Below are positions 16,301 to 20,745 of a DNA stretch of 29,418 bases, in pieces (the first letter of the stretch is position 1; the number at the start of each line of letters is the position of its first letter). The notes under the pieces are model-generated. The model was not told the origin of the DNA. It did no database searches and saw nothing but the letters and a program-made list of their open reading frames with translations. Both the position numbers and the translations under genes were made by a program. The stretch covers positions 1 through 29,418 of the IMG/VR virus record IMGVR_UViG_3300042865_001583; one strand, given 5' to 3'. This stretch comes from a virus.

Positions 16301-18374
16301 CCAGCAGCTCGTTCTCGTTACGCAGCCGCTCGACTTGCGCGATGTCGGGCAGTTGCTGCTGAACGGCCTGCGCCTGAGCGAACGACCGCTGCCGATCCTG
16401 CGCGGCCTGCGTAGCCGCTGCATTGCGGTTCATCGCTTCGGTGATCTTGTCGATCTCGGCGCGCTGCTGCTCGATCTGGTTCGTGGTGCCGAGACCCTTG
16501 TTCACTGCTGCCGATCGACGCTCCGCGATCTTCTCCAGCTCCTGCAGCCGCGCCTGCGCCTGGGCCAGCTGATCATCCAACCCAAGCTTGAGACCGATAC
16601 CGGTCGCACGCGAGGCAGCTGCGCCGATACGATCCCAGACATTCGAAGCGACATTGCCGAGCGCCGTCCAGAACTTCGTCGAGGTGCTGAGAGTTTCATT
16701 GACGCCAACGAGGCTGCTTTCCACGCCGGCCTGCAACACGCGCTGTGCCTCCCAGACGCGGCCCTGCGCAGTCAGGTTCTGGATCTGCCGTTGCATGGAG
16801 GCGTCGAGAAAGCCCAGCCGTGCGTTGAGCTGCTCGGCGCCGCGCACGGGATCCGCATAGGCCTTGCCGAGCATCTTGGCTGCTTCGGCGGCCTCGATAC
16901 CGAATACGGTCGCGATATCGTGGCCGATCTTCACGATCGGCTCCAGATTGTCGCGACCGATCTTGCCCGTCGATGCCAGTTCGGCGGCGAACTCGCGTGC
17001 CTCACGGACCGAGAATCCGGTCAGCGAAGAGCTGGACTGGGCAACCGAGTTGATGCTGCCAACCGACTGCCCCGAAGCGCGCCCGGAACCAAGCAGCGAC
17101 ATCTGCACACGCTGCTGGCTGTCGAGATATGAATTGAGAGCCAGCGCCGCTCCGGTGATCGAAAGCGCCACGCCGCCGAAGACCAATCGCCCCGCGGTCA
17201 GGAATCGGCCGAGCCAATTGACCGACTGGTTCGCAAAGTCGCCGATCGAGGCCTTCGACGCCACGAAGACGTCGGCGATCTGCGAGCCCTGCTGCAACAT
17301 GACGGTGCCGAGGCCTTGGCCACCCTGCAGCGAGACGATGACGTCCTGTGCCTGCCGACCGAGGTTGATCAGCTCATGGCGCGCAAGCCCGACACCGACC
17401 GCGAGCTTGCCCGATGCAGCGCTTGTGATGTCCTGGGCGTCACGCACACCACGCAGCGTATTCGTCTGCTGAACGAATGCCGCCTTGGTGTCCATCACCG
17501 CGGCGGCGCGCTCGGCCTCGGTGATCGCGCCGACTTTCGCGGCGGCGTTGATCTTGGCCAATGTCTCCTTGTACTGCCGGCCTGCTGCATAGAGCGGGCT
17601 GTATTTGGCGCGCAGATCATCGAGCTGCTTCCCATACGCAGCGATGTCGGCGCCGCGATCGGGCGCGACGGTCTGCCGATCGACGATCGCTTGCGCGGCT
17701 GCCTTGCGGGCCGCACCGACGCGCTCCAGCGCCGAGATCTCGCTGTTGTAGGAATTGATCGCCTTGAGCCGAGCCTGAGTGGCAATCTCGATCGAGATCG
17801 CGCCAACGCGCTGCGCCTGGTCAATCTCGGTCAGCGAAGCCTTGTAGCGCTCCGATGCCGCGAAAACCGGATCGTATTTGGCCTGCAGCCGCGACAAGGC
17901 CTGACCATAGGCCTCGATATCGGCACCGCGCGCAGCGGTGTCCGAACCGCCCGTGACGCCCGTCATGGCATTGATGCGGGCCTGCATCTCGGCGGCGCGC
18001 TGCAGCTCGGCGGTCTGCCGTGCCGCCGCCAGCGACACCACGCCATGCTTGTCGGCGAGCAGCTGCAGGCTACGGGCATATTCGGCCGCCTGGATATGGC
18101 CCTGCTCGAACGCACGCTCGATGATGGACTGCCCCTGCGCATAGCGCTGCTCGGTCCGGAACGTCTCATCGATCGAGCGGCGCAGGCGATCGTAATTGCT
18201 GGCGGCCGAGAGCTGACGGCGGGCCGATTGCTCGGTCGTTACCGCCATGCCCTCGGCCGTCTGGGCGACCGTGGTCTGCGCGCGCGCGACCGCCTCCAGC
18301 TTCGTCCTGGTTTCATCCAGGCCGGAGCTGGAGCCGACAACTTCAATGCGGCGGATGGCGGAAACGGCGACCAT
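13326..18374 (-). CDS. phage tail tape-measure protein
   Basis: 1682 residues, the longest gene here. It is predominantly helical coiled coil, as required for a protein that spans the tail lumen and sets tail length. Residues about 149-195 and 240-285 are a 91-residue-offset duplication (RGADI-x-AYG-x-x-L...AKY-x-P-x-x-AA and ...VGAI). Around 331-380 is the conserved tape-measure section (RHELINLGRQAQDVIVSLQG, then TVMLQQGSQIADVF). A hydrophobic helix lies near 390-414. A second Gly/Ala-rich, membrane-seeking region (GALGGAMAGATFGPVGAVVG) lies about two thirds along and may insert into the inner membrane during DNA entry. The C terminus has the YAGGGVVGNG / YVMPADQT pattern typical of these proteins. 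It follows the G-T chaperone gene, the canonical order. Confidence 0.9.
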   Translation of the reverse strand: MVAVSAIRRIEVVGSSSGLDETRTKLEAVARAQTTVAQTAEGMAVTTEQSARRQLSAASNYDRLRRSIDETFRTEQRYAQGQSIIERAFEQGHIQAAEYARSLQLLADKHGVVSLAAARQTAELQRAAEMQARINAMTGVTGGSDTAARGADIEAYGQALSRLQAKYDPVFAASERYKASLTEIDQAQRVGAISIEIATQARLKAINSYNSEISALERVGAARKAAAQAIVDRQTVAPDRGADIAAYGKQLDDLRAKYSPLYAAGRQYKETLAKINAAAKVGAITEAERAAAVMDTKAAFVQQTNTLRGVRDAQDITSAASGKLAVGVGLARHELINLGRQAQDVIVSLQGGQGLGTVMLQQGSQIADVFVASKASIGDFANQSVNWLGRFLTAGRLVFGGVALSITGAALALNSYLDSQQRVQMSLLGSGRASGQSVGSINSVAQSSSSLTGFSVREAREFAAELASTGKIGRDNLEPIVKIGHDIATVFGIEAAEAAKMLGKAYADPVRGAEQLNARLGFLDASMQRQIQNLTAQGRVWEAQRVLQAGVESSLVGVNETLSTSTKFWTALGNVASNVWDRIGAAASRATGIGLKLGLDDQLAQAQARLQELEKIAERRSAAVNKGLGTTNQIEQQRAEIDKITEAMNRNAAATQAAQDRQRSFAQAQAVQQQLPDIAQVERLRNENELLVRTMIDVQTSGGAASPILKAMGVTYEQLAQAVQNSTSKVRNFKTEFEQATQAQQLQLQSLSAFSPAAKGDVAYQQRLNAERARETEETKAQALAEGDRAIAIKGVGVALSEAARGRELYARQSVTAMQLEIDMVGKTIGQQAEMRANLQARQALEQQASQNRTAFDEAEYARLKKINEELGKRAQELAKKQVNDQITFDRATSGLSQDDVQIAQQLRGIYPDVATALGSTEAAGMRLNNQLREARDISSGFANDLVGGLLRGEDAMKALGTAASGLVQKLSSANLTRFMQGGSFFGSQSLNSAQGALGLVGAGVAGYQSGNALTGALGGAMAGATFGPVGAVVGGITGLVGGLFGASEKSRKELEKAEAEWKAAGPAFETFLSQMTGGVQGSISVKFQQLLSQVQSFAQQAEKAKDFASIGRVYDSFNQSVYRTTNAFRQSFGGMLDAIDKGLGPSSPFAGASDNVKQVADTLKGFIDDVRVAYANDRIAAAAGSAPLVAGGGEGEIAAATAAAQKYLLTLLGQPPVLTETATAIQQMNGTAVQLKSALTDLGMSSGDAADAINRGVIAAMDALRTKFSESLATRLNTATGKGYLNDAAALLKQYQQDVADAASLGLDQAQVAAVFRAEAQKIVDDAGLIGDSFGGFIDLFPQFNGLVGQSATALAAATQKVQAFAKSLNDYLNNLTVGTNSTLSPQQQLAAAQSNFTAQMTLARSGDEGALGTITQYATTLLDQAKSFYASSSGYTAIYDQVTTALKELPGAIGAGDGTSRIVSAINQTSAASDQLLAAQNALALQQTSYMETQNSLLAAINGLADRFVNAINGLGVLTAQIGNFHSQQFGDMIGQLVSIARSSAQNTGGGSAWSWLGFQNGGIIPGYAGGGVVGNGIYGVDSVVARYAGGGSIGLAGGEYVMPADQTRQFRPMLDAMRSGNMNDNVRSDAGGYREVGAAINRQTEILARDNEELRATISDMKQEIKALNSKLTLVLAAA

Positions 18375-18408: not shown

Positions 18409-18771
18409 TCAGACCGGCTTGTTCTTGTTTCCCGCTTCGCGTTCCCGCTCGGCCTGGTCGGCCCTGATCTTCAGATATTCACGGTCCAGTCCGCGGATCA
18501 GCGCGCTGAACTCATCGAAAGAAGCAAGGTCGTCGAGGCCGTAGCGCTGCGCGAAGCGGTCGATCGAGGCGAAGGGGATCGGCCCTTCGCTCATGCCAAG
18601 GGAGCGATCGGATGACAGGATCCAGAACGCATCCCAGATGAAATCGAGCGAGGGACCGAAGTCGGGCCGCTCCAGATATCCCAGAGGCACCTTACGGCCC
18701 TCGGCGAGCCAGCCCTCAAGGATCTCGATTTCACCGCTCCAGGCTAGGTACCAGTGGAGGTAGTCGTGGAG
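18409..18771 (-). CDS. T part of the tail assembly chaperone G-T fusion (made by -1 frameshift)
   Basis: This frame continues the G gene after a -1 slip at 18771-18777. It gives about 120 residues from LHDYLHWYLAWSGE to a basic tail. The section from PLGYLERPDFGPSLDFIWDAF through the SLGMSEGPIPFASIDRFAQR block and AQRYGLDDLASFDEF is typical of the T domain of siphophage tail chaperones. A GTG at 18690 could start it independently, but the frame is open back to the slippery site and the upstream LHWYLAWSGEIEILEGWLAE is protein-like, so the fusion (about 253 residues with G) is the better explanation. The fusion protein helps load tape measure and tube subunits during tail assembly and is absent from the finished tail. 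It ends 34 bases before the tape-measure gene. Confidence 0.8.
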   Translation of the reverse strand, partial: LHDYLHWYLAWSGEIEILEGWLAEGRKVPLGYLERPDFGPSLDFIWDAFWILSSDRSLGMSEGPIPFASIDRFAQRYGLDDLASFDEFSALIRGLDREYLKIRADQAEREREAGNKNKPV

Positions 18772-19169
18772 TTTCCCAAGTCAGCACCGCGCGCCGCGGC
18801 GGCCTGACGGCCAACGCGGCTCGATGCCCAGCCCACGGCATCGCGGAACGTGACGAAGTCGGGATCGTTCAGCAGCTCGGTCGCCTTTTCGACGCTGTAC
18901 GGCGTATCGTCAAGATTGCGCCAGCCGAGCAGCAATGCCTCGACACAGATCTTCGCCTCGATCTCATCGACCACTTCGGGCGGTAACCCATCCGGATTGT
19001 TGCGCACGTTGGCCGGCAGAGCGCGCAACAGCTTGGCGCGAAGCACGCGAGCCTGCGGGCAGCTCTGGCCGCGCACCAGTAGTTCGAGATCATCCATATC
19101 GGGGATGTTCTTGATCCACTCGCCCTCTGCCGAGACCTTGTGGTCAACCTTCATATTCGCAAGTTTCAT
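18744..19169 (-). CDS. tail assembly chaperone G
   Basis: 141 residues. Its ATG shares one base with the preceding stop (TAATG). It is helical, with a DMDDLELLVRGQSCPQARVL segment, a LLRALPANVRNNPDGLPPEV linker and an ICVEALLLGWRNLDDTPYSV helix. The end (GNSTTTSTGT) is low-complexity and lies beyond the frameshift site, so the fusion form replaces it. In lambda-like phages the short G form is made in excess and the G-T form at a few percent; the same arrangement is visible here. The function is inferred from position, length and the frameshift. Confidence 0.8.
   Translation of the reverse strand: MKLANMKVDHKVSAEGEWIKNIPDMDDLELLVRGQSCPQARVLRAKLLRALPANVRNNPDGLPPEVVDEIEAKICVEALLLGWRNLDDTPYSVEKATELLNDPDFVTFRDAVGWASSRVGRQAAAARGADLGNSTTTSTGT
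18771..18777 (-). promoter_or_regulatory. programmed -1 ribosomal frameshift site GGGAAAC
   Basis: On the minus strand the heptamer GGGAAAC has the canonical X-XXY-YYZ form and is exactly phased: codons 132 and 133 of the G gene are GGA and AAC, so tandem slippage to GGG-AAA leads into the T frame. It lies 9 codons before the G stop. A modest downstream inverted repeat (CTCCA/TGGAG) may form a stimulatory structure. Confidence 0.85.
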
Positions 19170-19486
19170 TATGCACCTGTCGGGGTTTGCTGACGGAGCC
19201 GGGGTGTTCCGTCTTTCATGAACTCAATGCGCCAGCCGTCGCAAAACTCGATCGCGGCGACGGGAGCGAGCGACTTCGTGACCGGATGTGCCATCACGAA
19301 ATCAGTTTTGGCAGCGACGATGTCGAGGTTCGGCATCAACAGCACGCACTGTGCCGTGATCATCTCACCGATCGTGACGGTCGCGCCGAATGCGATCGGC
19401 AGCATGTCGGAGACATCCTTGCCGGTCTCTGTGTCGATGAACTTGGTGCCGGCACCGCCGCCACCCTCGGATACAATCCGCAGCAT
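19169..19486 (-). CDS. phage hypothetical protein between tail tube and chaperone
   Basis: 105 residues. After a Gly-rich start (EGGGGAGTKF) comes a beta-rich section: DTETGKDVSDMLPIAFGATV, then TAQCVLLMPNLDIVA and the IEFCDGWRIEFMKDGTPRLR strands. The alternating strand pattern suggests a small barrel or minor capsid/tail component. No membrane helix. It lies between the tail tube gene and the chaperone pair, where some phages carry an extra tube-associated or neck protein. No family is recognised. It ends at the TAATG overlap with the G gene. Confidence 0.65.
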   Translation of the reverse strand: MLRIVSEGGGGAGTKFIDTETGKDVSDMLPIAFGATVTIGEMITAQCVLLMPNLDIVAAKTDFVMAHPVTKSLAPVAAIEFCDGWRIEFMKDGTPRLRQQTPTGA

Positions 19487-19571: not shown

Positions 19572-20054
19572 TTATGAGCCCGCCGTCGGGGCGACTTCAG
19601 TGATGCCGGAGGTGACACCGCAGCCGAAGGTGCGGGTGACGACAGTGTCGTTTTCACCGCCGCTGCCCTGCTTCGACGTGATAAGCGCCATGAAGTAGTC
19701 GATGCCATCGGTGCCGGTCGCATTGAGGCGATCCGGATTGACGACCTTGATAGGGTAATAGAGGTTCGTGCCCTCGGCCGCGATCAGCGCGGCCTGACCA
19801 AGATCGGTCGAGTCCGGATAGACCACGATCTCGGTGTCGCCGGCATCGCGCGCGCCTTTGGCCTTGCGGATACGGCCATCGCCGACGACGGCGCCGGTCA
19901 CGACCGAAGCCTTGTCGCCATAGGACGGCGTGGTGCGGACCATGCCAATTTCGGTCCAGGCCAATGCCGCATAAGCGGAGGCATTGGCAGGCGTCACCGC
20001 CTGGGAGGGACCGATATAGATCTTCGTGCCGCTGGCAGTACGAATATTCCCCAT
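19572..20054 (-). CDS. phage major tail tube protein
   Basis: 160 residues from ATG 20054, with AGGAG seven bases upstream; the GTG just before it is in frame but too close to the signal. The sequence is beta-strand rich: GTKIYIGPSQAVTPANASAY at the N terminus, TEIGMVRTTPSYGDKASVVT, an acidic VVGDGRIRKAKGARDAGDTE segment, a NLYYPIKVV strand, and a final GCGVTSGITEV strand. This matches the tail-tube fold of siphophages, which stack hexamers to form the tail lumen. Its place ahead of the chaperone and tape-measure genes is the expected one. The exact family is not proven. Confidence 0.75.
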   Translation of the reverse strand: MGNIRTASGTKIYIGPSQAVTPANASAYAALAWTEIGMVRTTPSYGDKASVVTGAVVGDGRIRKAKGARDAGDTEIVVYPDSTDLGQAALIAAEGTNLYYPIKVVNPDRLNATGTDGIDYFMALITSKQGSGGENDTVVTRTFGCGVTSGITEVAPTAGS

Positions 20055-20123
20055 CACTGGGCTCCTGTTGCTGAAACGCCTTGCCCAAGGGCCCTTGATG
20101 GGCGTCGACGCGAAATCGCGCCG

Positions 20124-20346: not shown

Positions 20347-20745
20347 TCAGAAGTTGAATGTGTAGGGAACGACCATGGACAGCTGGAAATAGTTGCCGTC
20401 CTCATTGTCGTCGTCGATCAGGGGCGAACTCGGCACCTGACACTCGACGCCGGCAAACTTCTGATCGCGGAACAGATCATCGAGCTTCTTGCTGCGCTCC
20501 ATCCCCTGCTGCAGGCCGATGCCGCGTGTTTCATTCAACACAAGCCGGAAGCCGCCTTCCTCGCGATAGATCGGCGCGTTCACCGCCATGCGGCGCCGAT
20601 CGGTGACGACCGGGTATTGCACCATCAGGAACGGCGAGCCGTCCGATGGTGGCTCGCCTTTGGTGTTGACGCCGAACACCGGAATGCCATCCCATGTCTC
20701 ACCGAGCCGCTCTTCCACAGCGACGGTGACCTGCACATCTGCCAT
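20347..20745 (-). CDS. phage tail terminator-like protein
   Basis: 132 residues. An N-terminal beta strand (VQVTVAVEERLGETWDGIPV) is followed by a loop (NTKGEPPSDGSPFLMVQYPV), an extended RRMAVNAPIYREEGGFRLVL strand, a helix with GLQQGMERSKKLDDLFRDQK, and a terminal YFQLSMVVPYTFNF strand. This alternation of a beta sheet with one conserved helix, with a final strand ending in aromatic residues, fits the tail-terminator (gpU-like) proteins that cap the tail at the head end. It is directly upstream of the tail-tube region, which supports the call. Confidence 0.7.
   Translation of the reverse strand: MADVQVTVAVEERLGETWDGIPVFGVNTKGEPPSDGSPFLMVQYPVVTDRRRMAVNAPIYREEGGFRLVLNETRGIGLQQGMERSKKLDDLFRDQKFAGVECQVPSSPLIDDDNEDGNYFQLSMVVPYTFNF

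Follow-up and report, generated by a model that had tools for sequence, protein, structure and literature searches.

The GGGAAAC heptamer located near the 3' end of the gene encoding the chaperone G most probably directs programmed -1 ribosomal frameshifting in a tail-assembly-chaperone gene of siphophage type, a reading to which sequence comparison leads us to give a probability of about 0.95. The window, by which we mean the whole stretch of DNA analyzed, consists of the 29,418 nucleotides at positions 1 to 29,418 of the IMG/VR virus record IMGVR_UViG_3300042865_001583, and the features discussed here are listed in Table 1. The first-pass annotation of this DNA had proposed a lambda-like G-T fusion of tail chaperones; homology, gene order and conservation agree with that proposal, and its coordinates and counts were all confirmed.

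Table 1. Coordinates of the chaperone genes, the slip site and the neighboring tail genes in the window
Feature	Position	Strand	Matches and remarks
Tail terminator, upstream	20347..20745	-	Pfam Phage_tail_terminator_5, 2.7e-8
Major tail (tube) protein, upstream of G	19572..20057	-	PHROG 158 major tail protein, 1.3e-17
G, tail assembly chaperone of 141 aa, made by standard translation	18744..19169	-	PHROG 313; weak match of predicted fold to HK97 chaperone
Predicted slippery heptamer GGGAAAC, X_XXY_YYZ phase, G codons 131-133	18771..18777	-	In phase in relatives too
T domain, entered by the predicted -1 slip	18409..18777	-	Pfam PF23812 Phage_TAC_18; PHROG 3817; PHROG 8233
Short T ORF from mechanical calling, GTG start; likely not the real protein	18409..18690	-	Without the conserved GKL-containing start of T
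Tape-measure protein, 1682 aa	13326..18374	-	Pfam TMP_2, 2.3e-40

The G gene extends for 141 codons from its ATG at 19169 to the stop at 18744. Reading along the minus strand, the heptamer occupies 18777-18771; it begins with the last base of codon 131 and continues with GGA (codon 132) and AAC (codon 133), which is the exact X_XXY_YYZ phase that had been claimed for it. G continues for eight codons past the heptamer. A TGA two codons 5' of the heptamer closes the -1 frame, so that ribosomes translating this frame from further upstream cannot enter T. From the GGG, this frame is open for 122 codons, against about 120 estimated earlier, to the stop ending at 18409, and 34 bases separate this stop from the tape-measure ATG at 18374, the same distance as first reported. 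The predicted G-T fusion contains 253 amino acids, made up of G codons 1-133 and then LHDYLHW (junction ...GADLGN-LHDYLHW...). The G/T pair is placed between the major tail protein (PHROG 158) and the TMP_2 tape measure, whose gene directly follows T. A 105 amino acid gene at 19169-19486 on the minus strand, between the tail protein and G, had no significant family match. The last base of its stop codon is also the A of the G ATG at 19169, an overlap of one base which suggests that the two genes may be translationally coupled.

The identity of both halves of the putative fusion was examined at the protein level. T matched Pfam PF23812 (Phage_TAC_18) with an E value of 2.9e-15 and a score of 56.6 bits against a curated cut-off of 27, which bears out the T-like domain noted in the -1 frame from the letters alone, and it matched the PHROG 3817 tail chaperonin family at 9.8e-21. 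Phage_TAC_18 was the only Pfam family matched by T, and no Pfam family was matched by G. Residues 1-139 of G matched the PHROG 313 tail assembly chaperone family (8.8e-14), a family that was matched by all 16 of the 16 aligned G proteins. PHROG 8233, which is 271 positions long, matches G in its first half and T in its second half (position 140 on), and thus a fused product is already present among the deposited relatives. The best PDB match to the predicted fold of G was the HK97 tail assembly chaperone (2ob9), a weak likeness with no sequence match, in which the Z score of 5.5, the best of 131, is compatible with a mere common arrangement (101 aligned, rmsd 5.4, Foldseek E value 1.0). Tail assembly chaperones of other phages, including the Colossus protein, were among the best viral fold matches to G. 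The predicted structure of T, with a pLDDT of 66, was too uncertain for fold searching. Profile searches of the G and T alignments against solved structures gave no meaningful match, tblastn of G in phages found nothing, and a plasmid search returned no match.

Relatives were collected mainly by T alone, and never by the heptamer, using T peptides, tblastn in phage records, and PF23812, the last of these searched in a sample of genomes belonging to the same order and class as a Tardiphaga metagenome-assembled genome (MAG). Within each relative, T was located by a profile from which the slip-proximal columns had been removed; L057 and L060 were left out of the locus analysis. An in-phase canonical heptamer was present at the junction in 46 of the 46 loci in which a G-type ORF stands in the -1 relation to T, a count which includes the window and the near-duplicates L044 (of L027), L023 (of L010), L024 (of L012) and L017 (of L016). 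The heptamer was GGGAAAC or AAAAAAC in 44 of these loci, GGGAAAG in one (L032) and AAATTTT in one (L052). Four more distant junctions, which were read directly, were also in phase (GGGAAAC in L009, TTTTTTT in L039, AAATTTC in L042 and TTTTTTG in L045), and AAAAAAG is visible in L040, which is cut by a contig end. The first-pass annotation had proposed alignment of homologues as a check, and the heptamer proved to be in phase in all relatives with the -1 G/T arrangement. No unrelated sequence was found at this site in close relatives, and in no relative were G and T already fused in one frame, these being the two sequence-level outcomes that had been named as contrary to the proposal. Within the last 20 codons, a single in-phase site was present in every one of 15 divergent G genes, against three such sites in the remaining approximately 1,960 codons. 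The nearest relative of the window locus is a 97%-identical prophage copy in the separately assembled Tardiphaga MAG. A second, divergent prophage in the same MAG (L009, 806-1731) has its own G/T pair, with GGGAAAC at the junction.

The K and L of the GKL/KKL motif are invariant in the T alignment, though identity between the G proteins falls to 15%. In five loci (L012, L022, L025, L029 and L031), the T frame offers its first start codon at codon 69-96, which is already within the conserved core or past it; this implies that the whole T domain there could be produced only via frameshifting. The relatives RcSimone-Hastad and BL57 were deposited as joined genes. In one locus, L034 (1318-1740), the T-domain gene is shifted by +1 relative to the G ORF ahead of it and no canonical heptamer is present, which means either +1 frameshifting or a T with a separate start; the mechanism is therefore not universal across the wider T family. 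PF23812-type domains were also seen in L037 (1177-1794) and L041 (1411-1779), where no G ORF was detected upstream. The ORF just upstream in L037 resembles the C-terminus of a tape-measure protein.

The bare GGGAAAC sequence is not rare in the window, with two matches against 2.5 expected, and its presence alone is therefore uninformative. Phase is more restrictive: X_XXY_YYZ sites in which Y is A or T occurred in phase three times in the 6,338 codons of the window genes, from which approximately 0.006 would be expected in the 12-codon overlap of G and T. The comparative evidence on the heptamer is far stronger than this chance figure. The second GGGAAAC lies at 18427-18433 on the minus strand, in the X_XXY_YYZ phase of the T frame and eight codons before the T stop, and a slip at 18433-18427 would lead into a 64-codon frame that overlaps the tape-measure start. 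This second site is probably due to chance, as only the 97%-identical relative has it among the 20 that were checked.

Ordinary gene calling had been expected to split the pair, and the mechanical ORF caller indeed starts the second ORF at GTG 18690. It is very improbable that T is a separate gene translated from this GTG by means of its own ribosome binding site or coupling, with the heptamer incidental. GTG 18690 has GAGGG about 8 bases upstream of it, and an own start for T is given by ORF callers and in many deposited records; however, this codon is the first start in the T frame and lies 29 codons in, so that a protein beginning there would lose 29 residues, the invariant K and L among them. 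Several relatives lack any start codon ahead of the conserved core, and a separate T would leave the in-phase heptamer at 46 of 46 loci unexplained. Slightly less probable again is a real change of frame brought about by transcriptional slippage or by a single-tRNA mechanism in place of tandem tRNA slippage. Either would give the identical reading-frame outcome, and the AAAAAAC found in relatives is homopolymer-rich, but the relatives adhere strictly to the X_XXY_YYZ phase, for which slippage during RNA synthesis would have no need. GGGAAAC, with runs of only three, is also a poor site for transcriptional slippage. Finally, indel errors can break frames in metagenome contigs, but one continuous G-T gene broken by a sequencing or assembly error is refuted by independent records, since the same break with the same motif exists in many isolates and genomes and in the 97%-identical prophage of the separately assembled Tardiphaga MAG.

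For programmed tandem slippage, the slip at the window site, its rate and the chaperone action that we infer would take the following form. Most ribosomes would translate G as far as the stop codon at 18744, while on a minority the tRNAs paired with GGA and AAC would shift back by one base to GGG and AAA, yielding the 253 amino acid G-T fusion as a minority product. By analogy with phage lambda, G may coat the tape-measure protein, to which tail-tube subunits may be brought by the T portion of the fusion. No stimulatory hairpin better than shuffled sequence was found in the 60 and 80 bases 3' of the window heptamer (z of +0.9 and +1.1), and strong downstream structure was present in only some relatives (for example, L015 with z of -3.3 and L010 with z of -2.4). 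In E. coli, an AAC in the A site shifts less readily than AAG at A_AAA_AAx sites (PMC5009743), and the efficiency of slippage here may thus be low. Nearly all loci, from phages of alpha-, beta- and gammaproteobacteria, have AAC in the A site as opposed to the AAG favored in E. coli. It is tempting to see in the kept AAC a slip that is weak by design, needs no RNA structure and serves to set the ratio of G to G-T, but we consider this doubtful; a simpler reason is that its C is the first base of a leucine codon that is invariant in the T domain.

The heptamer of phage lambda is GGGAAAG, which differs from the GGGAAAC of the window. The two are alike in the -1 slip arrangement ahead of the tape measure: in lambda, a -1 slip in G gives a minority G-T fusion from a gene preceding the tape measure, and most of the product is G (PMC5009743). 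The earlier description of the site as lambda-like is apt as regards arrangement and mechanism; sequence kinship to the G family of lambda is outside that claim. A GGGAAAC site has been predicted for a G/T-type gene pair in the archaeal virus HCTV-1 (PMC5009743), and AAAAAAC is the site in Acinetobacter phage Loki (PMC5313236). In Burkholderia phage KL1, a GGGAAAC -1 site was predicted near the G stop of gp18/gp19, with a fusion of 264 amino acids (PMC3483164). KL1 resembles the window in having GGGAAAC in the G gene shortly before its stop, with a predicted G-T fusion, and the site in Achromobacter phages L016 and L017 is identical to that of KL1 and in the same place. The KL1 stop, however, directly follows the heptamer, in contrast to the further codons of G in the window, and in KL1 an additional gene precedes the tape measure, with none between in the window. 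GGGAAAC in Caulobacter phage Colossus and AAAAAAC in phiCbK were predicted in chaperones preceding the tape measure (PMC3556154). These two phages share the gene position with the window, but are large prolate-headed siphophages of low sequence identity to it.

In long-tailed phages, the G/G-T frameshift arrangement, by which one gene gives both a short and a long tail-building helper, is well established. The site in the window is supported as a correct and ordinary example of this arrangement, and leaves the understanding of tail assembly unchanged. The two split ORFs can now be given a joint annotation, as a single frameshifted chaperone gene carrying a named Pfam domain. Comparison of the relatives also clearly supports the view that PF23812 proteins normally form the C-terminal part of G-T and are not made from their own starts.
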